Source of the DNA: a virus
DNA length: 28,145 nucleotides
Virus record (IMG/VR): IMGVR_UViG_3300044639_000612
Coordinates: 1-28,145 of that record
Reading direction: 5' to 3' (one strand)
The notes beneath the pieces were generated by a model. It was not told the origin of the DNA. It ran no database searches and saw nothing but the letters and a program-made list of their open reading frames with translations. The translations under genes and the position numbers were made by a program. Shown piece by piece: positions 8,804-28,145 of the stretch; the stretch's first letter is position 1; the number at the start of each line of letters is the position of its first letter.

Positions 8804-11800
8804 TTATCCTTTAATATTAAGTATTAAATTATTTAAAATTTCTTTCAATTCTTTAATTTCAGCTGATTGTTTTTTTATAATTTCATTTTGTTCTTTTATT
8901 GCTTCAATAAATAAACCAGCAAAATTACCATATGAAACACCATACTCATCCACATCAGCTGCGTATGTTACTACCTCAGGTAATATTTTTTCTACTTCTT
9001 GTGCAATTACCCCTATATTTCTTTTTTTGGTTTCATCATTAATTCTACTATAAAATACACCTCTCATTTGTGATACTTTATCTAAAGCATTATCAACAGT
9101 TATAATATTTTCTTTTGCTCGTCTATCAGAATAAGCTACTATATTACCTTCAGAATAAATACCTTTAGCTACATATATACCATATGCTCCAGATGTTGAA
9201 GATGTACAAAATCCCGTACAGTTATTTCCTAACGAATGATACAATACCCATCTTCCAGCGTCTTGTAAATATATTCCACCATTACCACTCTCCCACATAT
9301 AGTGAGGTAAATATGCTGAATCGATTACGTGTCCATACCATCCATTTCTATTACCATTCATTCTCCAAGCACCATATGTGATGTTGTTTGGATACCAGTG
9401 AGCTCCGTTTTGACTGGCGTAATATCCCGTGTCATTGGTCCACATCCATTTATACTTAAATGAATAGTTTGATGAACCTGCCAATTGGATACACAAATCA
9501 CTCATATCGTAATCAGAATAAACTCTAGTTCCTTCATAAGAACCAGCATTTCCTCCCAATTTAATACCAGTATGATATGCAATTCTTAAATCCGGATAAG
9601 GATAACCCCATCCACCACCTTCTTGGAAGATAGAGTATGCATTTGTACCTTGTCCAGAGTTACCACCAGTACCAATGAAATCTATACGAGCTGCTCTCAT
9701 ATAGTTGTTGAATTCACCAGAACTCATTTGAGAATATCCAGTAGGGTCAGTATAATATGCCGTATTGTTTTGGTCATAGAATATTGGTGCTCTAGAACTA
9801 CCATTTGAATATGAGTTACCACCTCTATCAATATAGAAGTCGGTAGTACCCCAACTTTGGTTTCTATGTCCGTGGTCGTGATTGATTCTAAAATAAGAAT
9901 CATCTGCATATCCATATCCACAAGACCATGTATTACTATTAAATCCGCTTGAGAATAAGATAGAAGGTCTATCACCTCCAGGTCCACCATTTACTCTAAA
10001 TTCACCAACAATACCCCAAGAGTTATCACCCTGGTTGTTTGCTGCCATAAATGCTCTACTATTAGGACCTGTTCCAAGTTTTACAACTTCTAATACTAAA
10101 CCAGTGTTTGTAAAATAACTATATCCATTAGGGTCTACATATCGAGATGTGTCATTGGCATCGTACATAATTGTAGAATATAGTGAACCAACACCAACTT
10201 CATTCAATCCGTACATTGCTAACTTATACCAAGCACGCTTTGAACTCCAATAAGATGTCCACCATGCACCTTCAATAGGTCCACCAACTAATTGCCACCC
10301 ATATCCACTATTATATGAACTTACATAGTGAAGTGCCTGAACTCCAGTCCAGTGAGATGTACCAGCAGGTTGGTTAGCCGGATTACTCCATGTATCAAAG
10401 AATCCACTACCCCAAGTAAATACAGAGATAAGGTCCGTTGTACCCCATCCCATTGAACCTACCCAATAGTTAGTATCTCCAGTATAATCATTTCTTCTAA
10501 AGTTACCCTTTGCAGTTAAACCAATTCTCATTTTACCATAATTGGTCAAACCTTGCCAGTTGGTCTCACTATTAAAATCACCATAATATCCAGTATCTCT
10601 ATCGTAATAAATTGGTGCGTTCATTTGGTCTCTTGCCCAAATTCTAGAAGAAATTGCTGCGAATGTAGTACCATAGTTCATTACTAATAATCCGTGGTCA
10701 TTTAAAAATCCAGCTTGTCCTCCAGCGTTTGGATGTGACCAAGCTAAACCATATAAGTTACCAGGACTACTTCCATCAATTGCCAATTTATATGAATCAC
10801 TCATTGCAAATACACCCTGATATCTAGTAGATGTATAAACACCTACAACAGATTGTCCGTAGTTGTAATCTAAGTAAAGGTTATTGTTTGTACCAATTCT
10901 AACTGCCGAATTAAATCTAACAGAAGATGTACTATCTGCATTAAATCCTAATAATGTGTTTCCTGCTGAGTTATTTGATGAATAGAATCCACCTGCTTCG
11001 TAAGCGTAATAAGAGCCATCAACTAATGTATATCCTTGTCCACCTTTATATAGGATTACAAATTCAGAACCCCCAGACATAGCATGTCCCCAAGCTCTAG
11101 TAAATCCATAAGATGCTAAATCACCTAACCAACCACCACTATTATACCAAACTTGTGCGCCACCAATGGTCATATTAACGGCGTTAATACCACTATTTGT
11201 AAATGTTGCCGATGTTACACCATTACTACTTTGAACTCTAAATCCAGTTCCAAAATAGTATCTCATTTCTTCCCAATCATCATCCGCATTCCATATAAAG
11301 TGATTGGTATCTCCGTTAGTTCTTAGATATAATCTTTGGTCATTTAAACCATAAGAACCAGTCATATTTATACCACCACTAATAGGAATTGCGTATCCAG
11401 AATAGTTTCCAGCATGCAACATTGCTCTCCACCCACTTTGCCAGTTCGTAGTACCATACCATCCGTATCTATGAAGAATTTCACCCTGATAGAAATAGTA
11501 TTGGTCATGTTGATGCCCACCTAATCCATAATATTCAATTAATGTACCATAAGATGAAGGTGCTCCACTTTGAGTGTAACTATCCCACATTCTAAAGGAC
11601 ATTGATTGAGTACCACTACCAGTACCATGAGCTCCCCAACTATAATCCCATTCTCTATAAGGGAATGTTACTTGGTTTACTACTATTCTATTACTATTCC
11701 ATAAATAAGTTGTATCATCCGAAACATAATATAGTGGTGAACGTAAATTACCATTTACCGAATCAGGCGTTACATATACTTCCTGATTTACCATTCTTAA

Positions 11801-14800
11801 TGTAGTAAAATTCGATGCACCTTCAGTACCAGTATTTAAATTGATTCTTTTTGATGAACCTCTATTTGATATATTGATTGCGCCAGCTCCATCTAAATTC
11901 ATAGATAATCCATCAGTAGAATATGCTGCATAAGAACCAAAAGATTGTGTTCTACCACCCATACCAAACCAAACTCTTTGAGTACTATTATCATCATACA
12001 TTCCCAATAACATATATCCAGATGCAGATGTATTATGCCATCTCATAAACGGAGCGCCACTACTATTGAATCTTGCTAAACCATTTACAATTAAACCGGC
12101 ATTATTTACATTCAAATTACCAGTATCTAATGTTAAATAATTTGTTCCATTAATACTCCAATAATGAGCGTTATTATTAGAATCAATTTGATATGTTGTA
12201 TATGCTCCAGAGTTTGAAGGTCTAGTTTGGAATCTCATTTTTGCACGGCTGGTGCCATTATCTACAGTCTCTATATAAAGACCTCCACTATCCATATCAC
12301 TATAAGTGTAATATGAGTTACCACCAGAAGACCATCTTAAATTACCAACCGCTTGTATAGTAGCTTGAGGAGTACCAGTACTTCCAGCTATTAAGCTATT
12401 TGTTACTTTAACGTTTGCATCACTAGTACCAACTGATAAAATAACTGCATCTAAATCTTCATTATTATAGAAACGAACACCACCATATCCAGGCTGTGCA
12501 CCCATACGAATACCAGTGTGCCATCTTAAATCCAATTTAGTATAGTTACCACCAAAATTTTCTAAGTTTGTACCGATGTAGTAATTGCTATTTGCATCAG
12601 AGTCACCACCACCAAAATGTAATCTAGTAGAACCTACTGAACTATATGCCTGATTACTAAAGTTACCACCAATTACAGCTCTACCTGTTACTGTTAAATC
12701 ATTAAAAGTAGGAGAATCGGTTGTACGAACATACTGATTCATATAATATGCATATGGAGAATTGAAATCAGTAAGAACTAATCTACCACTTCCCCAATTT
12801 GCCGAATCAAATGCTTGTTTTGCGAAGAAAACATTTTCTGAGTATTTGTCACTTACAATAGCGAAACTACTCTTAACATCACCACCACTATATGTACTTG
12901 TCCATAACACATCACTCCAAGGACCACTAAATCCTAAATTACCACTGGATAGCATTGCTACTTTAAACTTACCAGCTCCAAATATAGCGTTGTTTGGTTT
13001 TTCACTACCACCACTCACATAGTAACCACCTAAATAGTTATCTGCTCTTGTATATTGTCTTTGGTCATAATAAGTACCTTCTTGCCCATCCAATAAATCT
13101 GAATTGAGGCTTGATACTAATGTAGTTGATGAAACTACCAATGGAGATGTACCAGTTGCAACTCCTAATGTTAGTCTATTATGTGTTACGTTATCAGTTG
13201 TTCTAACCGGTTGGTTTAAATAATCTGAGAATTGGTAACCGTCCCATAAATCCGCATCCAATCCAGTACCAGTTCCATCATTTGCACTATGCCAAATTGT
13301 TCCAGCAATATGTCCTTGATTTGCAGTTGTCATAGTTACCCATCCAACCGATGACCAAGATGTATTATCCGTTCTATTTCTTATTTTGAATCCTCTAACA
13401 GGAGTATTATATTCAAACTCCATTTGAACTGTTCCAGTAGAACCACCCATATTAGTAGACCACAATCCAGAACTATATCCTGTATAACTTAAGGTTCTAA
13501 ATCCATTATCAACATAAGTATCAATACTAGTACCAGTACCTCCACTTAAATTTCTAAAGAATAATGAATTTTGTTGTCCACCTAAATAATCAGAGTTTAA
13601 GTTACTAACTAAAGTTGTAGATGATACTGCTAATGGTGATGTACCAGTTGCTACAGTTGATGTTATTCTATTGAATGATGGTGAATCAGTTGTACGAACA
13701 TTTTGGTTCATTAAATGAACTTCAGTTGCTCCTTGTCCACTATCAACAGTTCCACTAAGAACTAAATTACCAGCTATGTATGTGTTATCGTCGTGATACC
13801 ATCTATCACTACCTTCATCCCAATAAAATTGTTTTGTTGCTGCATTGCCTCTCTTAACTTCTATACCAGCATTTTCAGTTGGTGTAGTTGATGCTCCAAT
13901 ATCTGCGTTAAGTGTAATGATATTATCACCTACATTTAATGTTGTTGTATTAATATATGTTGTTGTACCACTTACAGTAAGGTCACCACTAATTGTAGCG
14001 TTACCAGTTACTGCTAATGTAGTACCATCGAATCTTAAATTTGCTTCAACAGTTCCGTTAGGAGCTGAACCATTTAGTGTGATTACACCATTATCAGTTG
14101 TACCAGTTAATGCTAATAATCCAGATGTACCAGATGTACCACGCGTACCTGATGTTCCACTACTTCCAGAAGTTCCAGAAGAACCAGAAGTACCACTACT
14201 TCCAGAAGTTCCAGAAGTTCCAGAAGTACCACTACTACCGCTTGTACCAGCAGAACCACTTACTCCAGAAGTTCCCGATGAGCCACTTGTACCAGAAGTT
14301 CCTGAAGTACCTCTACTACCACTTGTACCAGAAGTTCCAGCCGAACCACTTGTACCAGAAGTTCCTGAAGTTCCAGCCGAACCACTCACCCCACTACTAC
14401 CACTAGTCCCACTACTACCACTTATACCAGAAGTTCCTGAAGTGCCTCTACTACCACTTGTACCAGAAGTTCCTGCTGAACCAGAAGAACCTTGTGCTCC
14501 AGAAGTTCCAGATGTTCCTGCTGAACCAGAAGAACCTTGTGCTCCAGAAGTTCCAGATGTTCCCGATGTACCTGCCGAACCTGAAATTCCAGATGTACCA
14601 GAAGTTCCTGATGTTCCTGCTGAACCAGAAGAACCTTGTGCTCCAGAAGTTCCAGATGTTCCTGCTGAACCCGATGAACCTTGTGCTCCAGAAGTTCCTG
14701 ATGTACCTCTACTTCCACTTGTTCCCGAAGTTCCTGAAGTTCCCGATGAACCCCCACTACCACTTATTCCAGAAGTTCCAGATGAACCAGAAGTTCCTGA

Positions 14801-16162
14801 TGAACCAGAAGTTCCTGATGTACCTCTACTTCCACTTGTTCCCGAAGTTCCCGATGAACCACTTCCTCCACCGGCTCCAGTTATACCTGAAGTTCCCGAT
14901 GAACCTCCACTACCAGCCGTTCCATTCGTTCCACTTGTACCGCTTGTCCCACTACTACCAGAAGTTCCTGATGTTCCATTTGAACCGCCACCACCAGTTA
15001 TACCACCACTTCCTGCAGTTCCAGAAGTTCCCGAAGTACCACTACTACCACTTCTTCCAGAGGTTCCCGATGTACCAGCTGTACCAGTTGTACCACCCGT
15101 ACCATTTGTACCACTTATTCCCGATGAACCACTCGTACCGCTTGTTCCACTACTACCACTTAGTCCAGATGTACCGCTTGTACCAGAAGTTCCTGATGTT
15201 CCAGAAGTTCCTGATGTTCCAGAAGTTCCTGCCGAACCCGTTGTACCACTACTACCGGTTGAGCCCGATGTTCCAGAAGTTCCTGATGTACCACTTGTAC
15301 CACTACTACCGCTTGTACCAGAAGTTCCTGATGTTCCAGAAGTTCCTGATGTTCCAGAAGTTCCTGATGTGCCAGCCGAACCAGTTGAACCAGAAGTTCC
15401 TGATGTTCCAGAAGTTCCTGATGTTCCAGAAGTTCCAGACGAACCCTGAGAACCAGAAGTTCCTGATGAACCCGATGTACCAGATGAACCAGATGTTCCT
15501 GATGTTCCCGATGTTCCAGAAGTACCAGATGTTCCTGATGTTGCTGCTGCTGTTTTTACACCAACTCTACCAGTTGTTGTATTATAAACTAAAACTTCAT
15601 TTGTACTACCATCTTGCGGTAAAGAACCAACACCAAATGTTAATGAACCAGTAATCCCAACACTTCCAGTAAATTCCTGCTTATCAGTTTGAGCATCACC
15701 AAATTTTGATGAACCACTTGCGTAGATTATTGATGATGATATATAAGTTACTTTTAATTCAGTTGCATTTATTGTACCAGCTACTGTTAAATCAGTATTA
15801 ACTACTAAACCTTTATTTGGAGAAATTATTGCCGTTGCTGAACCTGATTTTAATCTATCCAAATCACCAATTGATGTAGCTGATATATTAAACAATCCAC
15901 TACCATCTCCTCTAAACAAAGATGCTGATATTGATGATGAAATATTAAAAGAGCCACTAATTTGGGTATTTGCTTTTATTTGAAGTGGTGATGTACCAAT
16001 TACTCCAATTACATTTGTTTGTACTGCAGAAGAACTAAAATTTCCTACAATATTAACAGATTCAGATGAGGCATTTAAAATAGGAGAACCACTTACAAAA
16101 AGTGATACACTATTTACACTAGTCTGATTTAAACCATTTGGATTATTACCGTTAAACGCCAT
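8804..16162 (-). CDS. Long collagen-like tail fibre with C-terminal S74 intramolecular chaperone
   Basis: A 2452-aa fibre. Residues 1-207 are short Gly/Ser beta repeats (GDGSGLFNI, SGSATAIISPNKGLVV, TYISSSIIYASGSSKFGD), ending in VLVYNTTTGRVGVKTAAA. Residues 208-681 are an unbroken Gly-X-Y tract, mostly TSG. Residues 682-800 form an adapter (TTLNVGDNIITLNAD, KRGNAATKQFYWDEGSDRW). A long beta shaft follows with three NQ.VRTTDS/N repeats and repeated Y-D-x-N/D-T-x-Y-Y-x-D-P units (YDQNNTAYYTDP). The C-terminus, from residue 2345, is an S74 domain (SDRRAKENI, IGVIAQEVEKILPEVV) ending in a coiled coil. In this family, known from endosialidase and T5 fibres, the domain drives trimerisation and then cuts itself off at the Ser of the SDxRxK motif. 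It should therefore mature to about 2344 residues. It is probably the host-recognition long fibre. No Shine-Dalgarno is clear; it follows the 110-aa gene by 16 nt. Confidence 0.92.
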   Translation of the reverse strand: MAFNGNNPNGLNQTSVNSVSLFVSGSPILNASSESVNIVGNFSSSAVQTNVIGVIGTSPLQIKANTQISGSFNISSSISASLFRGDGSGLFNISATSIGDLDRLKSGSATAIISPNKGLVVNTDLTVAGTINATELKVTYISSSIIYASGSSKFGDAQTDKQEFTGSVGITGSLTFGVGSLPQDGSTNEVLVYNTTTGRVGVKTAAATSGTSGTSGTSGTSGTSGSSGTSGSSGTSGSQGSSGTSGTSGTSGTSGTSGSTGSAGTSGTSGTSGTSGTSGTSGTSGSSGTSGTSGTSGTSGSTGSSGTTGSAGTSGTSGTSGTSGTSGTSGTSGLSGSSGTSGTSGSSGISGTNGTGGTTGTAGTSGTSGRSGSSGTSGTSGTAGSGGITGGGGSNGTSGTSGSSGTSGTSGTNGTAGSGGSSGTSGITGAGGGSGSSGTSGTSGSRGTSGTSGSSGTSGSSGTSGISGSGGSSGTSGTSGTSGSRGTSGTSGAQGSSGSAGTSGTSGAQGSSGSAGTSGTSGTSGISGSAGTSGTSGTSGAQGSSGSAGTSGTSGAQGSSGSAGTSGTSGSRGTSGTSGISGSSGTSGSSGVSGSAGTSGTSGTSGSAGTSGTSGSRGTSGTSGTSGSSGTSGVSGSAGTSGSSGTSGTSGTSGSSGTSGSSGTSGSSGTSGTRGTSGTSGLLALTGTTDNGVITLNGSAPNGTVEANLRFDGTTLAVTGNATISGDLTVSGTTTYINTTTLNVGDNIITLNADIGASTTPTENAGIEVKRGNAATKQFYWDEGSDRWYHDDNTYIAGNLVLSGTVDSGQGATEVHLMNQNVRTTDSPSFNRITSTVATGTSPLAVSSTTLVSNLNSDYLGGQQNSLFFRNLSGGTGTSIDTYVDNGFRTLSYTGYSSGLWSTNMGGSTGTVQMEFEYNTPVRGFKIRNRTDNTSWSSVGWVTMTTANQGHIAGTIWHSANDGTGTGLDADLWDGYQFSDYLNQPVRTTDNVTHNRLTLGVATGTSPLVVSSTTLVSSLNSDLLDGQEGTYYDQRQYTRADNYLGGYYVSGGSEKPNNAIFGAGKFKVAMLSSGNLGFSGPWSDVLWTSTYSGGDVKSSFAIVSDKYSENVFFAKQAFDSANWGSGRLVLTDFNSPYAYYMNQYVRTTDSPTFNDLTVTGRAVIGGNFSNQAYSSVGSTRLHFGGGDSDANSNYYIGTNLENFGGNYTKLDLRWHTGIRMGAQPGYGGVRFYNNEDLDAVILSVGTSDANVKVTNSLIAGSTGTPQATIQAVGNLRWSSGGNSYYTYSDMDSGGLYIETVDNGTSRAKMRFQTRPSNSGAYTTYQIDSNNNAHYWSINGTNYLTLDTGNLNVNNAGLIVNGLARFNSSGAPFMRWHNTSASGYMLLGMYDDNSTQRVWFGMGGRTQSFGSYAAYSTDGLSMNLDGAGAINISNRGSSKRINLNTGTEGASNFTTLRMVNQEVYVTPDSVNGNLRSPLYYVSDDTTYLWNSNRIVVNQVTFPYREWDYSWGAHGTGSGTQSMSFRMWDSYTQSGAPSSYGTLIEYYGLGGHQHDQYYFYQGEILHRYGWYGTTNWQSGWRAMLHAGNYSGYAIPISGGINMTGSYGLNDQRLYLRTNGDTNHFIWNADDDWEEMRYYFGTGFRVQSSNGVTSATFTNSGINAVNMTIGGAQVWYNSGGWLGDLASYGFTRAWGHAMSGGSEFVILYKGGQGYTLVDGSYYAYEAGGFYSSNNSAGNTLLGFNADSTSSVRFNSAVRIGTNNNLYLDYNYGQSVVGVYTSTRYQGVFAMSDSYKLAIDGSSPGNLYGLAWSHPNAGGQAGFLNDHGLLVMNYGTTFAAISSRIWARDQMNAPIYYDRDTGYYGDFNSETNWQGLTNYGKMRIGLTAKGNFRRNDYTGDTNYWVGSMGWGTTDLISVFTWGSGFFDTWSNPANQPAGTSHWTGVQALHYVSSYNSGYGWQLVGGPIEGAWWTSYWSSKRAWYKLAMYGLNEVGVGSLYSTIMYDANDTSRYVDPNGYSYFTNTGLVLEVVKLGTGPNSRAFMAANNQGDNSWGIVGEFRVNGGPGGDRPSILFSSGFNSNTWSCGYGYADDSYFRINHDHGHRNQSWGTTDFYIDRGGNSYSNGSSRAPIFYDQNNTAYYTDPTGYSQMSSGEFNNYMRAARIDFIGTGGNSGQGTNAYSIFQEGGGWGYPYPDLRIAYHTGIKLGGNAGSYEGTRVYSDYDMSDLCIQLAGSSNYSFKYKWMWTNDTGYYASQNGAHWYPNNITYGAWRMNGNRNGWYGHVIDSAYLPHYMWESGNGGIYLQDAGRWVLYHSLGNNCTGFCTSSTSGAYGIYVAKGIYSEGNIVAYSDRRAKENIITVDNALDKVSQMRGVFYSRINDETKKRNIGVIAQEVEKILPEVVTYAADVDEYGVSYGNFAGLFIEAIKEQNEIIKKQSAEIKELKEILNNLILNIKG
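8807..9130 (-). other. S74 chaperone domain and predicted self-cleavage site
   Basis: The last 108 residues of the fibre (2345-2452). The predicted cleaved Ser2345 (codon 9128-9130) and the catalytic Lys2350 lie five residues apart in SDRRAKENI, the same spacing as the Ser-Lys pair of the endosialidase domain. The conserved IGVIAQEVE and LPEVV segments and a terminal heptad-like helix (EIIKKQSAEIKELKEIL) are all present, so the domain looks active. Confidence 0.85.
14120..15541 (-). repeat. Collagen-like Gly-X-Y tract of the S74 fibre
   Basis: A run of 474 codons (158 triplets) coding for residues 208-681 with glycine at every third place, mostly Thr-Ser-Gly or Ser-Ser-Gly, with scattered AQG, SRG, ITG, SAG and NGT variants. 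There is almost no proline, unlike animal collagen. The tract is uninterrupted, in contrast to the one in the giant fibre. At the DNA level it is a 9-bp-period repeat with varied synonymous codons. Confidence 0.95.
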
Positions 16163-16853: not shown

Positions 16854-17297
16854 TTAAGGTTTCACAGGCCAAGTTATACTAAATGGATTGGGTTGAGATG
16901 TAATATCTCTTAAAGATTGTCTGTATTCAGACCAAATTGCTTTTGTTTCAGCTGATACATCTGCTAATTGTGTCCAATCACACTCTACCAATAATTCATT
17001 TCGAGTTTCTCTAACAATAAACCATTGATTTTCTAATCTATAATCTATTTCAGTTTGAGATGCATTGGTTTGAATCCAATTTTGATAATATACACCATCA
17101 GTTAAAACAGGCGTTCCTTCGGTGATATTTTTTGTGTAATCGGTTGGCATTGGAGTTGGAGTAACTACATACATATCCCACTCTATCAATGATGTATCAG
17201 TTAATTCGCTAGGTAAGCTTACATTTGGAAATGCTGCTCTTAATTGAGGAATACTATAAGGATAGTTTATTGTTTCATCTATAATTCGTAAATACAT
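16854..17297 (-). CDS. Probable tail fibre/tail assembly chaperone
   Basis: A 147-aa soluble protein. The N-terminal part (MYLRIIDETINYPYSIPQLR, then WDMYVVTPTPMP) resembles the substrate-binding half of small fibre-assembly proteins. The C-terminal part has the hallmark RNELLVECDWTQLAD, then IWSEYRQSLRDITSQPNPF and ITWPVKP. In tail assembly chaperone families this RxxLLxxxDWTQ...W..YRQALRDI...P..WP.KP pattern is very common. Such proteins help the long fibre fold and trimerise and are not usually part of the virion. It starts 1 nt after the stop of the BspA-like gene, so translation is coupled. Its likely clients are the 300-aa protein and/or the giant fibre just upstream. The role is inferred from motif and position. 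Confidence 0.7.
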   Translation of the reverse strand: MYLRIIDETINYPYSIPQLRAAFPNVSLPSELTDTSLIEWDMYVVTPTPMPTDYTKNITEGTPVLTDGVYYQNWIQTNASQTEIDYRLENQWFIVRETRNELLVECDWTQLADVSAETKAIWSEYRQSLRDITSQPNPFSITWPVKP

Positions 17298-18212: not shown

Positions 18213-21200
18213 TTAACTTAAGTTTTTACCTGTTACAAATCCATAGTAAGATGTTCCACCATTATAAGTGTAGAATACTAAAACATCAGTTCCAGAAGAA
18301 GTAAGTATTGGCGCACTTCCACCAACCCAATCAACACTAGCAGGCCAAGTAATTGCATATGCTCCGGCATTTACGGTTACTAATGTAAATCCAAATCCAA
18401 TTGGAGAATTAGGTGCGTTTGTTATTGTTATTGTTGCAGTTCCGTTAAATTGTCTTCTAAAGTTGTTTGCTGTTGATAAATCCAATGTTGCACTTCCACC
18501 AGTTCCTAAATCATTAAATGTTTCTCTATATGTTGTTGATATTACGTTACCTACTACTGCTAAATTCGTACCATCAAATGTTATATTACTTTCAACAGTT
18601 GCACCAACGGGTGCATTTGTGTAAGTTAATAATCCATCATTGGTTGTTCCAACCAAAGAAAATCCATTTGTACCAGAAGTTCCAGATGAAAATGCCGGTG
18701 AATTAGTACCCGATGTACCATTTGCACCACTAGTCCCAGATGAACCAAAGAATGTACCATTTAATCCAGAAGTACCATTTGCACCACCACTACCAGAAGT
18801 ACCAGATGAAAATCCCGGAGCGTTTGTACCTGATGTACCAGAAGAACCGGAAGCGCCAGTCTCACCATTAATACCACTCGTACCACTGCTACCAAAGAAT
18901 GTACCATTAACACCAGAAGTTCCTGATGTACCAGAAGTTCCAGAAGTTCCTAATCCAGACGTTCCCGATGTTCCAGCCGTACCACTTATTCCAGAAGTTC
19001 CTGATGAACCGAACATTGTACCATTTAATCCAGAAGTTCCTGATGTACCAGAAGTTCCCGATGTACCAGCAGAACCAGATACTCCAGAAGTTCCTGATGT
19101 GCCGCTTGTACCACTACTACCAAACATAGTACCATTCAATCCAGAAGTTCCTGCTGTCCCAGAAATACCAGATGTGCCCGATGTACCACTTACTCCGGAA
19201 GTACCCGATGTTCCAGAAGTACCACTACTTCCAAACATTGTACCATTTAATCCAGAAGTTCCTGATGTTCCTGATGTTCCAGAAGTTCCTGATGTTCCAC
19301 TACTTCCACTTACTCCTGAAGTACCACTTGTACCACTACTTCCAAAGAAAGTTCCATTTAATCCAGAAGTTCCTGATGTTCCCGATGTACCAGAAGTTCC
19401 TGATGAACCATCCGTGCCATTTAAACCAGAAGTTCCCGATGAACCACTTTCTCCAGAAGTACCACTACTTCCGAACATTGTACCATTTAAACCAGAAGTT
19501 CCCGATGAACCACTTTCTCCAGAAGTTCCAGATGTACCAGCTCCGCTTGTACCAGAAGTACCATCAAAACCAGATGTTCCACTACTTCCAAACATTGTAC
19601 CATTTAAACCAGAAGTTCCTGAAGTTCCAGAAGTTCCAGAAGAACCACTTTCTCCAGAAGTACCTGAAGTACCACTTATTCCAGAAGTACCACTACTTCC
19701 AAACATTGTACCATTCAATCCAGAAGTTCCTGAAGTACCATCAGTACCATTTATTCCCGATGTACCACTTGTACCACTTGTACCAGACGTACCATCAGTA
19801 CCATTTATACCAGAAGTTCCTGAAGAACCAAAGAAAGTTCCGTTTAATCCAGAAGTTCCTGAAGTTCCGCTAGTACCATCCGTACCATTTATTCCACTCG
19901 TTCCACTACTTCCACTTTCTCCCGATGTTCCAGAAGTACCGCTACTACCAAAGAATGTACCATTTAATCCAGAAGTTCCAGAAGAACCATTTTCTCCAGA
20001 AGTTCCTGATGAGCCATTTTCCCCAGAAGTTCCTGATGTTCCCGATGTACCATCAGAACCACTTACGCCGCTTGTACCACTACTACCAAAGAATGTTCCG
20101 TTTAAACCAGAAGTTCCTGATGAACCATTTTCTCCAGAAGTTCCTGAAGTTCCTGATGTGCCACTTGTACCGCTTGTACCAGAAGTACCACTACTACCAA
20201 AGAAAGTTCCATCTAATCCAGATGTTCCTGATGTACCACTTGTACCACCACTTCCAGATGTTCCAGAAGTTCCATCACTACCACTTGTGCCGCTTGTACC
20301 GCTTGTTCCATCACTACCAGAAGTTCCTGATGTTCCAGAAGTTCCATCTGAACCATTTGTACCGGATGTACCAGCTGAACCATTTGTACCTGAAGTTCCC
20401 GATGTACCACTTGCTCCAGAAGTTCCTGATGAACCACTTTCTCCAGAAGTTCCAGAAGTTCCTGATGTACCATCAGTACCAACACCACTTGTACCACTTG
20501 AACCAGCACTACCATTTGTACCACTTGTACCAGATGTACCTGAAGTTCCAGATGAACCACTTTCTCCAGAAGTTCCTGAAGTACCAGATGTACCATCAGT
20601 ACCAACGCCGCTTGTACCAGAAGTTCCGCTTGTACCACTTGTACCAGACGAACCATCACTACCACTTGTGCCTGATGTTCCAGATGTACCAGAAGTTCCC
20701 GAAGTACCCGATGTACCACTACTACCACTAGTACCACTTGTACCAGACGAACCATCACTACCGCTTGTACCAGATGTACCGCTTGTTCCAGAAGTTCCCG
20801 ATGTACCGCTTGTACCAGATGAACCCGATGTACCATCCGAACCAGAAGTTCCTGATGTTCCAGAAGTTCCAGAAGTTCCCGATGTACCCGAAGTTCCAGC
20901 CGAACCAGTTGAACCAGAAGTTCCTGATGAACCAGAAGTTCCCGATGTACCATCTTGTCCAGCTGAGCCGGATGTACCAGAAGTTCCTGATGTACCATCT
21001 GAACCAGTTGAACCAGATGTACCACTTGTTCCAGATGTACCAGAAGAACCACCACTACCAGATGTTCCACTACTACCACTATCACCACCACTACCAGAAG
21101 TTCCCGATGTACCAGAAGTTCCCGATGTACCAGAAGTTCCCGAAGTACCACTACTACCATTAGAACCAGAAGTTCCTGAAGTACCCGATGTACCAGAAGT

Positions 21201-24200
21201 ACCTGCTGTACCAGCAGAACCATTTGTACCGCTTGTTCCCGATGTTCCAGAAGTTCCTGATGTTCCAGAAGTTCCTGATGTTCCAGAAGTTCCTGATGAA
21301 CCACCACTTCCTGCAGTTCCATTTGTACCGCTTGTTCCTGATGTTCCTGATGTTCCAGAAGTTCCAGAAGTTCCTGATGTTCCGCTTGTGCCTGATGTTC
21401 CAGATGTTCCGCTTGTGCCTGATGTTCCAGAAGTTCCCGATGTCCCAGATGTTCCAGAAGTTCCCGATGTTCCAGATGTTCCAGAAGTTCCCGATGTTCC
21501 AGATGTTCCTGATGTTCCAGAAGTTCCTGATGTTCCTGATGTACCAGAAGTTCCTGATGTTCCTGATGTACCAGAAGTTCCTGATGTACCATCTAATCCA
21601 GAAGTTCCAGAAGTTCCTGATGTACCAGAAGTTCCTGATGTACCAGAAGTTCCTGATGTACCATCTACTCCAGATGTTCCAGAAGTCCCAGAAGTACCGC
21701 TTGTACCACTTGTACCAGAAGTTCCTGATGTACCATCCGTTCCACTTATACCAGAAGTTCCTGATGTACCAGATGAACCCACAGCTGCTGCTATATTTCT
21801 ATATCCTAATTTTTTTGTTACTGTATCCCATATTACTACTTGCTCATATGATGCAGATGGTAAATTTCCAAAAAATACACTACCACTCACACCCAAACTA
21901 GCACTAACTACTAAAGATGCTCTAAAAGTTTGGTCAGTATTAATTTGTAAGAACGATGAAGTATCACTTCCAGCTGCATTTAAAGCGTATGATGCAGTAA
22001 ATGCAAATATTGCTAATGAAGCCGTACCAACTCTCATTGATGCGGTTTGGAAATTTTGTATAAAGTTAGCCGTATCAACGTTTGATGCATTTTGTGCAAA
22101 TAATGCATATGATGCGGTAATTGCTAAAGAAGCAGTACCAACAGTCATTGAAGATGTTCTACTATTTCTTACATAATCAGTTAAATTAAGATTACTTAAA
22201 TCAGCTACATATGATGCGGTTTCTGCAAATTTAGAATTTAAAACAGCCATTGAAGCTGTTTGGTCATTTCTTACATAAGCGTTTGCATTTGATAACGATG
22301 CTGATAATGCTACCAACGATGCCGAATCAAATCCAGTTACAGCGTCTGCTAAAGCTGCTCTCCTAGCATAAGATGCCGAATAAACTTCACCAAATACCCT
22401 ATCTCCATTAATAGTTCCATTTATTAAAGAACCACCACTACCAATTACAACATGTCCAGATGTTAATCCACTAAATACAATTTGTATAGTATCATCATCA
22501 ATTGATTTTATTGTTCCAGGTAAAATTTGGTCTTCAGAACCAGTAGCGTACACCTGAACCATTGGATATTTTATACCCAAATTGTGTACAATAGTTAAAT
22601 TACTTACATTATTAAATGCTACTGTTTCAGTTAATGATGTTTCCGGCTGAGGTATGAAATATCCTTGTGTTGGATTGAATCTTAAAATATCATATTCTGC
22701 ACTAGCCGTAGCCCCAACTCCTTGGAAATTATATGTACCTAAGAATGAACCGGTAAATAATTGAGATTTAATAACATTACTTGCCGTAATATTATTTACT
22801 AATATTTTATTCAATACATTCAAATCACCTTGTATAGATGCTGATGTATTTACAACTAATCCTAAATTTGGAGAGATTTGTGCAGTTACAGAACCAGATT
22901 GTAATAGAGAAGTTTCAAATGCTAAATTAGCGATATTGATATTTCTTAATCCACTACCATCTCCAATAAATGAAGAACCAGATGCTGCTATTACATTTCC
23001 ACCACTAACAAATACCGAACCACTCACAGTTAGTGAACCAGAGAATATTCTTACAGATGTATTTACTTCAAATCCTTTATTTGGAGATATCACACCTTCA
23101 ACCGAACCAGATATAACTCTATCTAATTTAAGGTCTTGTAATGCGTTTGCCGGAATGTTAAATAATCCACCACCATCACCAATAAATAATGCAGCTGTTA
23201 TAGGTACGTTTACATCTAATTTTTCTGGGTCTACAATTGCTCTACCAGAACCAGATTGAATTATACTTAATTGTAAATCTTCTAATGCCGATGCTGGGAT
23301 ATTAAACAATCCACCACCATCACCTTCAAAACGAGATGATGATATCGAACCACTAATACTTACCGAACCAGTGAATATAGAACCATAATAAGAACCAGAA
23401 TTAGAACCTACACTTGAGAATACACCATTCGTTGTTACTACAAATTGTATTCCACTTTGAACGGATGCCGTTGCAGAACCACTTGCTATTAATGGAGCTG
23501 CAGATGCTTGTACATTCGTTAATTGAGAACCATCTCCAATGAATGAAAATGCTCTAACACTACCACTTACGTCAATTGAACCCGTAAATCTAGAACCAAT
23601 GGCCGAACCAGTTGCTCCAGTTGTTACTACAAAGGAATCACCACTTTGAACCGATGCAGTTGCAGAACCACTACCAATGAATGGTGCAGCTGCCGCTTGT
23701 ACGTTTGTTATAAATCTACCATCACCTAATATAAATTGAGCTTTTAAACTACCACTAACATCAACACTACCAGTTATACGAGTACCAATTTGATAATTTA
23801 AGCCAGAACCAGTTGCACCGGTTGTAACTACAAAAGTATCACCACTAGCTACCGAAGCCGTTGCAGAACCACTTGCTATTAAAGGTGATGCTGCCGCTTG
23901 TACATTTGTAATTTGAGAACCATCTCCTATAAATCTAAATGCTCTAACACTTCCACTTACATCAACACTTCCAGTAAATTGAGAACCAAACTCAGAACCA
24001 CTAAATATATTAGTTGCTATTACTTTAAATCCAAAATCAGGACTTACAGATGCCGTTACTGAACCAGATACAATAAACGATGATAATAGTGCATCTTCAG
24101 TTAATGCAGAACGAGGAATATTTCTAAGATATGTTCCATCAGCAAATATAAATGATGATGAATCTATAAATAGTCCTCCGCTTGTATCATTTACAAATAA

Positions 24201-27200
24201 ACTACCAGATACGGATATTGAACCCGTAAATTGAGATGCTATTTGTGTAACAAAGAAACTTTCACTTACTGATGAAGTAAATGGTGTTTTTACTATAAAT
24301 CCAAATACAGGAGATACCGATGCTGTTACTGAACCTGATTTAATTTCAGATGAAGCTAATGCATCTTCAGTTAATGCAGAACGAGGAATATTTCGTAAAT
24401 AAGTACCTTCTGAATAAATAAAAGAAGATGAATCAATTAAAATACTTCCACTAAAAGATGAACCACTTTCAACTGATTCAACAAAAAATCCTTTTTGTGG
24501 TGATACCGATGCTGTTATACTACCAGTTGCTATTCGTACTGCATCACCAGTAATATTTGAGAAAGGAATATCAAATAATCCTTTACCACTACCACTAAAT
24601 ACAGAAGCAGTTACTACACCAATTACTTTTGTATCTCCAATTAATTTTATTTCTGCTGGAACATATAATGCATCTACTACATTAATAGTGCCGGCCATTG
24701 AACCATGTAATTGACAATTATAATAAAGTGTATCCGGTGCACTTCCTGAAACTAAAAATGTTATAACACCAACATCATCACCATTATTAGTTACCCAAGT
24801 ATCATATGAGTTTGCAGTACCTGTACTATTTGTATCTTTAATCCAAAATGGATGCCCACTAGCATTTACATTAAATGTATAATTTACATTTCTAACTAAA
24901 GTTAAAGTTGGGTTTGAACCACTTACTAATCTATTACTTATATTATATGCACTACTTCCAGCATTGGTTACGTTAAATACAGTATCTATATCAGAATATG
25001 CTAATTCTCTTGCCGAAGATGATACTATAAAACTTCCACTAATTGTAGAAAATGTATTTACTCTAAGCCCATAATCAGGCGAAATTGATGCAGTTACCGA
25101 ACCACTTGCAATTCTATTAATTTTAAATGATAATGCAGATTCAGGAATATCAGATAATCCAGCACCACTACCACTAAAGAAAGAACCAGTCTCAACTCTA
25201 ATATATCCACCAGTTACAAATAAACTACCAGTAAATTGCGAACCACTTTCAGCTGATATTACTCTAAATCCAAAATCAGGAGAAACAGATGCAGTTACAC
25301 TACCACTTTTAATTTCGGTAGATATTAAAGCATCTTCGGTCAATGCGTTTCTAGGAATATCTTTTAATCCAGCACCAGAACCAGAGAAAAATGAGCCAGT
25401 CTCAACTCTAATGTATCCACCAGTTACAAATAAAGAACCTGTAAATTGAGAACCACTTTCAGCTGATATTACTCTAAATCCATCATCAGGAGAAACCGAT
25501 GCAGTTACACTTCCACTAGCAATTCTTTTTAATTCTTCTGATAACGCTGAAAATGGAATATCTGTTAATCCTTTACCACTACCACTAAATACGGATGCTG
25601 ATACTGAACCAGAAAAGTTTGATACTGAAGCGAATACCTCAAATCCTCTATCAGGAGAAATTGATGCAGTTGCAGAACCAGAGAAAATTTTAGAAAGGTC
25701 TAAGTTTGCCAATGCTGATAGTGGGATATCAAATAAATTTTTACCACTACCAGAATAAGATGAACCACTTGCTAATGATATATTACCACTAACAAATAAA
25801 CTACCAGTAAATTGAGAACCACTTTCCGCAGATAATACTTTAAATCCAAATTCAGGACTAACCGATGCCGTTACACTACCACTTTTTATTTCAGTAGATA
25901 ATAAAGCATCTGGCGTTAAAGCTGCTCTTGGTATATCAAATAATCTAGCACCACTACCGCTAAACGAACCACTGGATATTTCTATACTTGAATTTCCAAA
26001 TATACTACCACTTAAAAATATACTACCAGTAAATTGAGAACCTTTATCAGAAGATACTACTACGAATCCAGAATCAGGACTTACAGAAGCTGTTACCGAA
26101 CCAGATACTATCTTTGTTGCAACTTGAGGTGGTACGTTTATATTTGTTAATCTACTACCATCTCCTTGAAATGAACCACTAAAGCTTGAACCACTAATTT
26201 CTTGTCCAATTAAATTTCCAAATATAATTAAAGAACCACTAATATCAACAGACCCACTAAAAGTTGAACCACTTTCAACTGATTTTACTAAAAACCCATC
26301 ATCAGGACTTACAGAAGCCGTTACAGAACCACTTGCTATTCTAGGAGAATCTCCAGTAAATGCTGCTCTTGGAATATTAAATAATCCCCCACCATCACCT
26401 TGGAAAAACGAACCACTAAATGAGCCAGTAAATTCTCTAGCTCTAATAATATCACTAACATCCAAACTTCCTGTTATGGTAACACCATCACCTTTTTGCA
26501 ATAATCCATCTACTATATTAATAGTACCAGCCATAGATGCATGGAATTGACAAATATAATAAAGTCTATCAGGTGCATTTGATGGTACTGCAAATATTAA
26601 AGTACCAACTTGACCTCCATTATTCGTTACACCCGTATTATATAAATCGTTTGTTCCGGTTGTATTAATTGTTTTTATTTGAAAAGGATGTCCGCTTACA
26701 TTTAAATTAAAAATATAAGTTATACCTCTTACTAATGTTAATGTTGGATTCGAACCAATAGCTGCCCCAGTAAAATTATAATTTAAATTATCATTATTAG
26801 TTACGTTAAATACAGTTTGTATAGATTCGGATGGAAAATATTGCTTAGATGCTGAAATAAGCATACTTCCACTAAATGTAGAGAATGTATTTACTACCAA
26901 TCCTTTATCAGGAGAAATTGATGCAGTTGCCGAACCGCTTGAAATCTTAGATAAGTCTAAATCTCTTAATGCTCTTACTGGAATATCAAATAATCTAGCA
27001 CCACTACCAGAGTAAGATGAACCAGAATTAATTTCAATTCCACCACTTACAAATAAACTACCAGTAAAACTAGAACCACTTTGTGCAGATATTACTTTAA
27101 ATCCAAAATCCGGAGATGTTGATGCCGTTACACTACCACTTGCTATTAATGTTGCTACCAATGCATCCGGAGTTAATGCTGAACGTGGTATATCGAATAA

Positions 27201-28145
27201 TCTTGCACCACTACCAGAATAAACACCACCAACACCCAATTGAATATTACCAGTAACAAACATGCTACCAGTTATCTGAGAACCAACCGTAGCAGATTCT
27301 ACTCTAAATCCAAAATTAGGTGATACCGATGCCGTTACACTACCACTTGCTATTAAAGTTGCATCCTCTGCTAAAGCTGATTGTGGAATATCAAATAATC
27401 CCTTACCACTACCACTAAACATTGATGCGGATACTGGAAATTGGAATGTTGAGAATGTATTTACAACCAATCCAGTGTTTGGTGCGATAGATGCAGTTGC
27501 AGAACCACTTGCTATTAATGTTGCTGTTAAAGCTGGTAAATTAAATAATCCTCTACCATCTCCGATAAATAAAGATGCTGATATACTACCACTAATATCT
27601 ACACTACCAGTAAATTCAGAACCACTTAATGCCGATTCAACTTTAAATCCATATGTAGGGTCTACGGAAGCAGTTACACTACCACTAGCTATTCTAAATG
27701 AATCACCACTAAATGCAGAACGAGGAATGTTAAACAATCCAGCACCATCTCCAGTAAATGCACCAGATACAGAACCTGTTATTTGTTGCGCTTTAAGTGA
27801 ACCAGTTATTGTAACACTGCCGCTAATATTAAGTGAACCAGTTATTTGTTGTATATCTAATATATCATCTCCAAACTTATTTGAACCCGATGAATATATT
27901 ACAGATGATGAAATATAAGATACTACTAATTGTTCTGCAAATATAGAATCTCTTACAATTAAATTTCCTTGAACTGTTGTATTTGTATTTACAACTAAAT
28001 TACCTCCTATAAAAGATGCAGTTGCCGAACCACTAGCTATTCTAATTGCTGCAGGTAGATTTGTTAAGTTACTACCGTCCCCTTGAAATGAACCAGAAAA
28101 AGAACCTGAAATTTGGTCTAAACTAATTGTTCTTGCAAATCCTCT
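18213..28145 (-). CDS. Giant collagen-like tail fibre, N-terminus beyond window edge
   Basis: The frame is open from the right edge to the stop at 18213-18215, at least 3310 codons; no true start is visible. Order from the N-terminal side: about 22 short beta modules (28145 to about 22740) with the pattern GDGxGLFNIPxxAL...IASGSVTASVSPDFGFKVxSxxSGSxFTGS; two cupredoxin-like inserts at 26507-26820 and 24665-24990; a domain with NLTIVHNLGIKYPMVQVYA (about 22440-22620); a helical ATASYALxA segment (21780-22400); a Gly-X-Y tract (18663-21779); and a C-terminal cap (GTTNDGLLTYTNAP, ITWPASVDWVGG, YYGFVTGKNLS). It lacks an S74 domain. Repeats, Gly-X-Y stalk and position beside a fibre chaperone identify it as a virion fibre, probably trimeric. 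It is far longer than T4 long-fibre proteins. Confidence 0.9.
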   Translation of the reverse strand, partial: RGFARTISLDQISGSFSGSFQGDGSNLTNLPAAIRIASGSATASFIGGNLVVNTNTTVQGNLIVRDSIFAEQLVVSYISSSVIYSSGSNKFGDDILDIQQITGSLNISGSVTITGSLKAQQITGSVSGAFTGDGAGLFNIPRSAFSGDSFRIASGSVTASVDPTYGFKVESALSGSEFTGSVDISGSISASLFIGDGRGLFNLPALTATLIASGSATASIAPNTGLVVNTFSTFQFPVSASMFSGSGKGLFDIPQSALAEDATLIASGSVTASVSPNFGFRVESATVGSQITGSMFVTGNIQLGVGGVYSGSGARLFDIPRSALTPDALVATLIASGSVTASTSPDFGFKVISAQSGSSFTGSLFVSGGIEINSGSSYSGSGARLFDIPVRALRDLDLSKISSGSATASISPDKGLVVNTFSTFSGSMLISASKQYFPSESIQTVFNVTNNDNLNYNFTGAAIGSNPTLTLVRGITYIFNLNVSGHPFQIKTINTTGTNDLYNTGVTNNGGQVGTLIFAVPSNAPDRLYYICQFHASMAGTINIVDGLLQKGDGVTITGSLDVSDIIRAREFTGSFSGSFFQGDGGGLFNIPRAAFTGDSPRIASGSVTASVSPDDGFLVKSVESGSTFSGSVDISGSLIIFGNLIGQEISGSSFSGSFQGDGSRLTNINVPPQVATKIVSGSVTASVSPDSGFVVVSSDKGSQFTGSIFLSGSIFGNSSIEISSGSFSGSGARLFDIPRAALTPDALLSTEIKSGSVTASVSPEFGFKVLSAESGSQFTGSLFVSGNISLASGSSYSGSGKNLFDIPLSALANLDLSKIFSGSATASISPDRGFEVFASVSNFSGSVSASVFSGSGKGLTDIPFSALSEELKRIASGSVTASVSPDDGFRVISAESGSQFTGSLFVTGGYIRVETGSFFSGSGAGLKDIPRNALTEDALISTEIKSGSVTASVSPDFGFRVISAESGSQFTGSLFVTGGYIRVETGSFFSGSGAGLSDIPESALSFKINRIASGSVTASISPDYGLRVNTFSTISGSFIVSSSARELAYSDIDTVFNVTNAGSSAYNISNRLVSGSNPTLTLVRNVNYTFNVNASGHPFWIKDTNSTGTANSYDTWVTNNGDDVGVITFLVSGSAPDTLYYNCQLHGSMAGTINVVDALYVPAEIKLIGDTKVIGVVTASVFSGSGKGLFDIPFSNITGDAVRIATGSITASVSPQKGFFVESVESGSSFSGSILIDSSSFIYSEGTYLRNIPRSALTEDALASSEIKSGSVTASVSPVFGFIVKTPFTSSVSESFFVTQIASQFTGSISVSGSLFVNDTSGGLFIDSSSFIFADGTYLRNIPRSALTEDALLSSFIVSGSVTASVSPDFGFKVIATNIFSGSEFGSQFTGSVDVSGSVRAFRFIGDGSQITNVQAAASPLIASGSATASVASGDTFVVTTGATGSGLNYQIGTRITGSVDVSGSLKAQFILGDGRFITNVQAAAAPFIGSGSATASVQSGDSFVVTTGATGSAIGSRFTGSIDVSGSVRAFSFIGDGSQLTNVQASAAPLIASGSATASVQSGIQFVVTTNGVFSSVGSNSGSYYGSIFTGSVSISGSISSSRFEGDGGGLFNIPASALEDLQLSIIQSGSGRAIVDPEKLDVNVPITAALFIGDGGGLFNIPANALQDLKLDRVISGSVEGVISPNKGFEVNTSVRIFSGSLTVSGSVFVSGGNVIAASGSSFIGDGSGLRNINIANLAFETSLLQSGSVTAQISPNLGLVVNTSASIQGDLNVLNKILVNNITASNVIKSQLFTGSFLGTYNFQGVGATASAEYDILRFNPTQGYFIPQPETSLTETVAFNNVSNLTIVHNLGIKYPMVQVYATGSEDQILPGTIKSIDDDTIQIVFSGLTSGHVVIGSGGSLINGTINGDRVFGEVYSASYARRAALADAVTGFDSASLVALSASLSNANAYVRNDQTASMAVLNSKFAETASYVADLSNLNLTDYVRNSRTSSMTVGTASLAITASYALFAQNASNVDTANFIQNFQTASMRVGTASLAIFAFTASYALNAAGSDTSSFLQINTDQTFRASLVVSASLGVSGSVFFGNLPSASYEQVVIWDTVTKKLGYRNIAAAVGSSGTSGTSGISGTDGTSGTSGTSGTSGTSGTSGTSGVDGTSGTSGTSGTSGTSGTSGTSGLDGTSGTSGTSGTSGTSGTSGTSGTSGTSGTSGTSGTSGTSGTSGTSGTSGTSGTSGTSGTSGTSGTSGTSGTSGTSGTSGTSGTSGTSGTNGTAGSGGSSGTSGTSGTSGTSGTSGTSGTSGTNGSAGTAGTSGTSGTSGTSGSNGSSGTSGTSGTSGTSGTSGTSGSGGDSGSSGTSGSGGSSGTSGTSGTSGSTGSDGTSGTSGTSGSAGQDGTSGTSGSSGTSGSTGSAGTSGTSGTSGTSGTSGTSGSDGTSGSSGTSGTSGTSGTSGTSGTSGSDGSSGTSGTSGSSGTSGTSGTSGTSGTSGTSGSDGSSGTSGTSGTSGTSGVGTDGTSGTSGTSGESGSSGTSGTSGTSGTNGSAGSSGTSGVGTDGTSGTSGTSGESGSSGTSGASGTSGTSGTNGSAGTSGTNGSDGTSGTSGTSGSDGTSGTSGTSGSDGTSGTSGSGGTSGTSGTSGLDGTFFGSSGTSGTSGTSGTSGTSGTSGENGSSGTSGLNGTFFGSSGTSGVSGSDGTSGTSGTSGENGSSGTSGENGSSGTSGLNGTFFGSSGTSGTSGESGSSGTSGINGTDGTSGTSGTSGLNGTFFGSSGTSGINGTDGTSGTSGTSGTSGINGTDGTSGTSGLNGTMFGSSGTSGISGTSGTSGESGSSGTSGTSGTSGLNGTMFGSSGTSGFDGTSGTSGAGTSGTSGESGSSGTSGLNGTMFGSSGTSGESGSSGTSGLNGTDGSSGTSGTSGTSGTSGLNGTFFGSSGTSGTSGVSGSSGTSGTSGTSGTSGTSGLNGTMFGSSGTSGTSGTSGVSGTSGTSGISGTAGTSGLNGTMFGSSGTSGTSGTSGVSGSAGTSGTSGTSGTSGLNGTMFGSSGTSGISGTAGTSGTSGLGTSGTSGTSGTSGVNGTFFGSSGTSGINGETGASGSSGTSGTNAPGFSSGTSGSGGANGTSGLNGTFFGSSGTSGANGTSGTNSPAFSSGTSGTNGFSLVGTTNDGLLTYTNAPVGATVESNITFDGTNLAVVGNVISTTYRETFNDLGTGGSATLDLSTANNFRRQFNGTATITITNAPNSPIGFGFTLVTVNAGAYAITWPASVDWVGGSAPILTSSGTDVLVFYTYNGGTSYYGFVTGKNLS
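18663..21779 (-). repeat. Collagen-like Gly-X-Y tract of the giant fibre, interrupted in its C-terminal half
   Basis: About 1039 residues with glycine at nearly every third position, chiefly Thr-Ser-Gly. The half nearest the N-terminus (about 20210-21779) is almost pure TSG, with a stretch of over 20 consecutive TSG triplets near 21240-21600. The C-terminal half (18740-20210) carries 13 single-residue interruptions of the form GT(F/M)FGSSG, spaced about 37-49 residues apart. Two GVGTDG one-residue deletions lie around 20480 and 20610. The DNA is a 9-bp-period repeat, so slippage or assembly collapse could change its length. Confidence 0.95.
24665..24990 (-). other. Cupredoxin-like domain, copy 2, inside the giant fibre
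   Basis: About 108 residues: VFNVTNAGSSAYNIS, NPTLTLVRNVNYTFNVNASG, then HPFWIK, a loop, GVITFLVSGSAPDTLYYN, and CQLHGSMAGTINVVD. The strand pattern and the ligand set His...Cys-x2-His-x2-Met match type-1 copper cupredoxins; the Cys-x2-His-x2-Met spacing equals that of amicyanin. His to Cys is 46 residues. It is inserted after an SPDYGLRVNTFSTISGS module. Confidence 0.72.
25175..25530 (-). repeat. Recent 210-nt tandem duplication within the fibre module array
   Basis: Two adjacent modules are nearly identical at the DNA level, with a shift of exactly 210 nt (70 codons). For example, the plus-strand stretch CCAGTCTCAACTCTAAT occurs at 25187 and again at 25397, with the following 20 or so bases differing at one position. 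Both encode TGGYIRVETGSFFSGSGAGL. The low divergence marks the youngest duplication I can see in the array. Confidence 0.8.
26507..26820 (-). other. Cupredoxin-like domain, copy 1, inside the giant fibre
   Basis: About 105 residues: VFNVTNNDNLNYNFTG, NPTLTLVRGITYIFNLNVSG, HPFQIK, a loop, GTLIFAVPSNAPDRLYYI, and CQFHASMAGTINIVD. It has the same His, Cys, His and Met set and the same 46-residue His-to-Cys distance as copy 2. The Cys codon is at 26550-26552, the second His at 26541-26543 and the Met at 26532-26534. It is inserted after an SPDKGLVVNTFSTFSGS module, the same context as copy 2. Confidence 0.72.

Follow-up and report, generated by a model that had tools for sequence, protein, structure and literature searches.

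The giant tail fibre encoded in the viral DNA analysed here carries two copies of a domain that we predict, with very little doubt, to be a cupredoxin with an intact type 1 copper site. The best overall explanation, to which we assign a probability of roughly 0.6, is that these are type 1 cupredoxin modules of the tail fibre, which would be metallated after release and would present a copper-locked surface for interaction. The parts of this reading carry different weight: copper is likely to be bound in the virions, and a role mainly as an interaction module locked by copper is put forward tentatively, at somewhat less than even odds. Our computational analysis establishes the fold of copy 2, the ligand set, its conservation and its concerted loss, the use of the module in many phage tail proteins and one domain-sized exchange.

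The window, that is, the whole stretch of DNA analysed, is a 28145-base IMG/VR viral record, which was read on both strands in six frames. The fibre is encoded on the minus strand by a reading frame of 3310 codons (18213..28145), with its 5' end open and the N-terminus of the protein lying beyond the window. The frame contains GDG..LFNIP and SGSVTAS repeats, the two cupredoxin domains and then a long (SGT)n tract. The initial annotation had claimed two His/Cys/His/Met motifs with the spacing H-x45-C-x2-H-x2-M within a phage tail fibre. We find the motif twice, both times in this one open frame, once in each domain of about 110 residues, and the placement in a tail fibre holds as well, since the protein matches PHROG tail-fibre families and tail genes adjoin. 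The PHROG tail-fibre matches of the whole protein run mostly through the (SGT)n repeat tract.

The domain coordinates proposed earlier were right in position to within a few bases, but their ends came slightly too early and did not respect the reading frame; better limits, on the minus strand, are 26496..26825 for copy 1 (frame residues 441-550) and 24660..24992 for copy 2 (frame residues 1052-1162). Copy 1 is assigned from the motif and from its 61% identity to copy 2, and copy 2 from the motif, an AF2 model and structural matches. On the same strand, the first ligand His of copy 1 (in HPF) lies at 26688..26690 and its ligand loop CQFHASM at 26532..26552 (Cys 26550-26552, His 26541-26543, Met 26532-26534). 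The corresponding positions in copy 2 are 24852..24854 for the first His, again in HPF, and 24696..24716 for the loop CQLHGSM (Cys 24714-24716, His 24705-24707, Met 24696-24698). Chance is no serious option for the two motifs, because Cys and His are so rare in the product and the motif is absent elsewhere: the 3310 residues include 2 Cys and 6 His, of which both Cys and four His are motif ligands, and C-x2-H-x2-M has no further occurrence in the six frames of the window. An intradomain disulphide was considered and ruled out, each window domain having a single Cys.

In the C-terminal part of the fibre (18213-22176, minus strand), GTSGTSG repeats form a low-complexity tract of great length, interrupted by LNGTFFGSSGTSG units. 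Long open frames run antisense to the fibre genes at 18640-22176 and 13845-15449 on the plus strand, the first of which is probably no gene, because its VPEVPDVP-like repeats mirror the (SGT)n tract.

Judged from its genes, the window virus is a contractile-tailed phage. The minus strand also encodes a tail sheath protein (5437..7785; Pfam PF04984/PF17482), a second giant tail-fibre protein of 2452 aa (8804..16162; PHROG tail-fibre families) and a tail fibre assembly or tail assembly chaperone-like protein (16854..17297; Pfam PF16778 and PHROGs), and Pfam and PHROG scans add a tail tube, a weak tape-measure match and a T4 baseplate-like protein as further same-strand neighbours of the fibre. 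The nearest named relative of the sheath is that of Microcystis phage Mel-JY01 (47.8%), followed by a 484 kb uncultured phage and Flavobacterium phages; the tape-measure-like protein has a single match, at 25%, likewise in Mel-JY01.

To characterize the fold, we built an AF2 model of copy 2 from an alignment of this copy with 114 relatives (A2). The model has nine strands, a mean pLDDT of 97.1 and a pTM of 0.89. A Foldseek search of the PDB gave 24 matches at E<=0.001. By their titles, 22 of these are copper proteins of the cupredoxin fold; the titles of the other two, 3cvd and 3cvb, do not name a protein. The best match is a nitrite reductase (E 6.7e-5), and the others include AcoP, rusticyanin, plastocyanin, purple cupredoxin, multicopper oxidase and small laccase; the TM-scores of the 24 best rows are moderate, at 0.43-0.61 by query length. 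VIA-align of the Foldseek matches gives Z 11.5 and 2.4 A over 96 residues against residues 24-137 of 2dv6 (the N-terminal part of the H. denitrificans nitrite reductase), Z 9.3-10.5 for rusticyanins, the top one being the ligand mutant His143Met, and Z 8.6 for auracyanins. Sequence identity to the structural matches is low (8-21% over 50 VIA-align rows).

A sequence profile of the 115 members, searched against the PDB, yields 17 matches at E<=10, of which 16 are cupredoxins (best E 0.0036) and the other is ribosomal protein L23. A first profile of 12 members had given 27 matches, 17 of them cupredoxins and 10 not; the repeat beta-propeller designs (8prj and kin) that topped this earlier result are gone with the 115-member profile. 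We accept the cupredoxin fold because the matches agree, each alone being weak. We are confident in the Greek-key beta-sandwich that the model predicts for copy 2, and copy 1, at 61% identity, probably shares it. The fold proposed in the initial annotation is thus borne out: copy 2 is confidently predicted as a cupredoxin sandwich, and its best structural matches are solved copper proteins. In a 301-residue context model, with a mean pLDDT of 62.5, the domain is again confident (block pLDDT 87-96) and the flanking fibre repeats stay under 72; this model does not settle how the domain is placed on the fibre.

Among predicted viral structures, the matches of the cupredoxin model include cyanophage fibre and baseplate proteins and, from giant viruses, a few proteins with a beta-sandwich. 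The giant-virus matches include the BFVD entries A0A481Z6J5 and A0A481YVH3 (Pithovirus LCPAC302 and Marseillevirus LCMAC201), at E 1.3e-8 and 5.3e-8, respectively.

Recognition as a cupredoxin, for which the initial annotation proposed a profile search and structure prediction, comes from the deeper 115-member profile and the fold search and not from the family databases. Neither window copy matched a cupredoxin family in the Pfam and NCBIfam scans: PF00127 (Copper-bind, cut-off 21.2 bits) has no match in the window copies or the window DNA, and the cut-off of PF25489 (At5g54830-like domain, 27 bits) is reached neither by copy 1 (17.4 bits) nor by copy 2 (13.0 bits). Within the family of 115, 8 members match PF00127 and 40 match PF25489 at E<=0.01, and the cellular members L149 and L147 exceed the PF00127 cut-off, with 28.8 and 24.9 bits.

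The copper-ligand identities of azurin are known, and we compared the family with 14 azurin-like proteins, which are PF00127 matches from Bacteroidota genomes and owe the label to our own reading. A forced global profile alignment pairs SGHPFWI with MGHNFVL and Cys with Cys, and in copy 2 the first His and the loop Cys are the residues so paired. At GHPF the column confidence is 7-8 of 9; the shorter loop puts the second His out of line. The forced global alignment has an E of 0.0081 and a probability of 2.1, and the local one, with E 2.4e-4 and probability 43, covers the Cys loop only. Against plastocyanin 2plt, the HPF of the family is shifted by two residues from the ligand His, which counts against ligand equivalence; we take this shift as a local misalignment, because the azurin-like profile alignment has the His in register. 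Indirectly, the azurin-like alignment suggests that the first His and the Cys may be equivalent to the azurin-like copper ligands. Amicyanin, present among the PDB profile matches as 1sfd (E 1.2), is known to have a C-x2-H-x2-M loop of the same length as the fibre domains, but its spacing from the first His to the Cys is about 38 residues, as opposed to 45 in the fibre.

We then consider the ligands in the relatives. H, C, H and M are all present in 153 of 162 distinct domains. Pattern-based searches pick those relatives that have the ligands, and we therefore split the relatives by search type: 107 of the 110 domains from pattern-selected places are complete, as are 46 by alignment, or 47 counting locus L163, of the 52 that were not pattern-selected. 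The searches that used no ligand pattern gave 41 full domains, whose median pairwise identity is 33%. All 41 have the Met and 40 have the other three ligands as well; the four ligands are among the seven most conserved positions. This set, obtained by tblastn or whole-profile search, is less biased but not unbiased, as the tblastn queries and profile A2 carry the ligands themselves. It comprises 31 domains from named or single-cell phages, 30 of which keep the ligands, and 10 from genomes of the Bacteroidota phylum, where 13 genomes matched and the 10 with loci were taken.

The 31 phage domains include the 21 phage domains of the split by search type, and 30 phage loci from 29 phages were hand-picked, non-randomly, among the tblastn matches listed. 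One partial genome domain and three partial phage stretches (two of them with part of the motif) were left out before counting, and one Polaribacter locus appears twice, as L173 here and as L131 among the pattern-selected places. Four departures from HCHM were not scored as losses, namely L144 (cut short), L153 (which reads as frame-shifted relative to L150), L163 (an alignment slip, with THAL and CSNHSGM present) and L138 (Met to Gln only). The last of these, from an Acidobacteria MAG (L138:3992-4309), is a bacterial relative with Gln for the axial Met, that is, H-C-H-Q. Stellacyanin is known to use Gln as the axial ligand of its type 1 site.

These counts bear on whether the site holds another metal, e.g. 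zinc, or none in nature, its ligands being kept for some other reason. His/Cys sites can take zinc and the fibre is made in a copper-poor compartment, but zinc would not need the Met that all 41 relatives keep, 40 of them with the full set, and the Gln of L138 at the place of Met is an axial ligand of the stellacyanin type. We consider this alternative highly unlikely.

Five intact copies among the 162 lack the Cys, and all five also lack the second His. The states at the four ligand positions are Q-S-G-M (L019), Q-S-Q-M (L013), H-S-D-M (L054), H-D-L-L (L010) and F-A-V-M (phage S-B05, L162); the first His is thus gone in three of the five and the Met in one. All five keep the fold residues, with Pro-Phe following the His position, Tyr-Tyr preceding that of the Cys and Gly following that of the Met. 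On a tree with few columns and many weak forks, the losses fall at three places: L019 with L013 and L054 (96/83 support), L010, and L162. Copy 1 is the site-less one in L010, L013, L019 and L054, and the other copy or copies read there keep all four ligands. The ligands are kept together and lost together and therefore form one site, which is the mark of a metal site. Since the domain persists after the site is lost, the metal is not essential to every copy, and the fold is useful without metal in some phages. The selection for metal binding suggested in the initial annotation is supported by both results, as the ligands do not vary freely in the 41 relatives and their losses are concerted; the limit to this claim is that site-less copies keep the domain. 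The S-B05 copy (frame residues 163-281) lies in a tail fibre of a cultured phage and, with F, A, V and the Met kept, offers a natural putative metal-free control.

Many of the IMG/VR relatives have two copies in a fibre, and three copies are present in L017, L018, L019, L022 and L058, among others. Compared with L008, L010, L013, L019 and L028, copy 1 of the window is 54-72% identical and copy 2 is 70-96% identical. In the same five comparisons the 100 codons upstream of copy 1 are 71-83% identical and the 100 codons downstream 59-73%; because the downstream codons are as divergent, it is the whole stretch from copy 1 onward that is variable. The dN/dS against the window is about 0.14-0.44 in 18 of 18 comparisons, ligand-less copies included. 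Between L008 and the window, the DNA of copy 2 is 95% identical and the flanking 100 codons on each side are 74% identical, the identity rising at the domain start and dropping a few dozen bases past the domain end. The simplest reading of this one case is that the domain was exchanged as a cassette.

The copper, or the sandwich alone, could serve stability only, stiffening the fibre against the environment with neither recognition nor redox chemistry. The confidence of the fold is very high, type 1 copper stabilises cupredoxins, and the ligand-less copies persist, with a dN/dS below 0.45 for copy 1 of L013 and L019 against the window, which indicates that the sandwich itself is useful. Many substitutions could give stability alone, however, and the ligands still rank within the seven most conserved positions at 33% median identity; the domain-sized exchange with L008 also suits an interacting surface somewhat better. 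Stability as the only function is doubtful, with an appreciable chance of being right.

Outside the fibre of the window, the module is widely used. With three different members as tblastn queries, 339, 275 and 338 of 50,697 phage records matched; among the 339 matches of the first query, 333 bear the name Synechococcus phage, Prochlorococcus phage or cyanophage, many of these records being near-identical strains. A profile-derived pattern finds at least 600 stretches in IMG/VR, at least 541 of them confirmed. In the Bacteroidota phylum, 13 of 296 genomes hold a relative at E<=1e-6, and at many bacterial genome loci the domain stands at the C-terminus of the frame, some of these frames having signal-like N-termini as judged by eye. 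In Syn9 and P-TIM68 the module is C-terminal in a protein with a T4_gp9_10_N domain (PF07880), and the marine relatives in gp9/gp10-like baseplate proteins carry the annotations tail fibre connector or tail pin. It is also fused to a subtilase (ACG-2014i), to collagen repeats (P-SSM2), to fibre repeats (S-B05) and to a YHYH domain (Actinomycetia phage DSL-LC01), and in the T7-like podovirus P-GSP1 it lies near the protein start.

PHROG 677, annotated as 'baseplate wedge tail fiber protein connector' and containing gp9-like proteins of marine cyanophages, is the best match of each window domain alone, yet it is unlisted in the scan of the whole 3310-residue protein. Its positions 306-410 of 412 correspond to the fibre domain (E 5e-27 for copy 1). 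The window protein differs from this family in being a giant fibre and not gp9, and the PHROG 677 description mentions no cupredoxin.

In phage ACG-2014i, the subtilase (PF00082) and the C-terminal cupredoxin module are in one protein (L158:1264-3333), and the cupredoxin model also matches proteins called Peptidase S8/S53 in ACG-2014e and ACG-2014h. Synechococcus phage S-SCSM2R has a 168-residue gene annotated 'PetE' (L046:2788-3294), which adjoins peptidase S8 and FhaB annotations and is a member of the module family. The S-SCSM2R PetE is closest in the tree to an S-SSM7 protein annotated gp9, and it may form part of the virion instead of serving photosynthesis.

In a baseplate protein or in a fibre, the site could also have a redox role: by taking or giving an electron at the surface of the host, it would act as a sensor of contact or as a trigger. 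The closest folds include electron carriers (rusticyanin, auracyanin, plastocyanin), the full H-C-H-M set is kept, and marine relatives reside in gp9/gp10-like baseplate proteins. Against this, ligand-less copies share fibres with complete copies, and no redox partner was recognised in Pfam and PHROG scans of the window proteins, some of which match nothing. We regard a redox role as unlikely.

Type 1 cupredoxins such as rusticyanin, auracyanin, plastocyanin, azurin and the N-domain of nitrite reductase have the fold and the His-Cys-His-Met order in common with the fibre domains, and GHx[FW] and the Cys pair with those of the azurin-like proteins; unlike these proteins, the fibre domain is a repeated module inside a phage fibre and is not known to have an electron-transfer partner. 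Cyanophages also carry petE (plastocyanin) as an auxiliary gene, which is described as metabolic, for electron transport (PMC2984593). Phage petE is a cupredoxin gene of cyanophages too, and the fibre domain is instead part of tail proteins. Among the papers listed in our search of the PMC literature, judged in part by title and with subscription papers and preprints outside its scope, none dealt with a phage-tail cupredoxin; those on other subjects treat plastocyanin as the petE metabolic gene, viral nirK, Borgs and an archaeal genome, among others. It is well supported that this is a type 1 copper-site module in phage tails, whose fold and site are classic and whose placement is apparently undescribed in the literature searched.

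Metal has been seen or proposed in tail fibres, as iron at the HxH motifs of T4 gp37 and other fibres (PMC11705849). There, the iron is octahedral and held via HxH, in contrast to the type 1 copper site predicted within a globular domain of the present fibre. By analogy with the iron-based Ferrojan or Trojan Horse hypothesis, for which this iron is a precedent of metal in a fibre, fibre copper might act as bait that aids docking to a metal-uptake protein of the host. We find this most improbable: residues 441-550 and 1052-1162, which the domains occupy, are far from the C-terminal end of the 3310-residue frame, and we found no copper-receptor link. Type 1 copper is, moreover, buried and tightly held.

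We return to the reading favoured at the outset, a copper-locked interaction module. The host cytoplasm, in which phages have their proteins made, contains very little free copper, and the fibre is for this reason probably assembled metal-free. Copper would then be taken up from the water following lysis. The bound ion would lock the loops atop the sandwich and create a rigid, exposed interaction surface, which may contact the cell or neighbouring tail parts. Such a surface fits the spread of the module across unrelated tail proteins and bacterial proteins, including those with signal-like starts, and the domain exchange. A further step, that copper is the signal of exit from the cell and switches metal-free modules to a copper-locked, infection-ready form on release, is quite unlikely; such a maturation step, in that same improbable case, would be common to many marine T4-like cyanophages and to a wide set of uncultured phages.

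The recurrence of this module in tail proteins, including the gp9-like baseplate proteins of cultured marine cyanophages, means that phage tails may hold copper. It calls for caution with phage genes labelled petE, some of which, as in S-SCSM2R, may be virion parts. If copper is bound, the infectivity of these viruses would be tied to dissolved copper, their tails would offer a handle by colour or EPR, and a domain whose present annotations are gp9, tail fibre, tail pin and hypothetical protein would gain a directly testable role.
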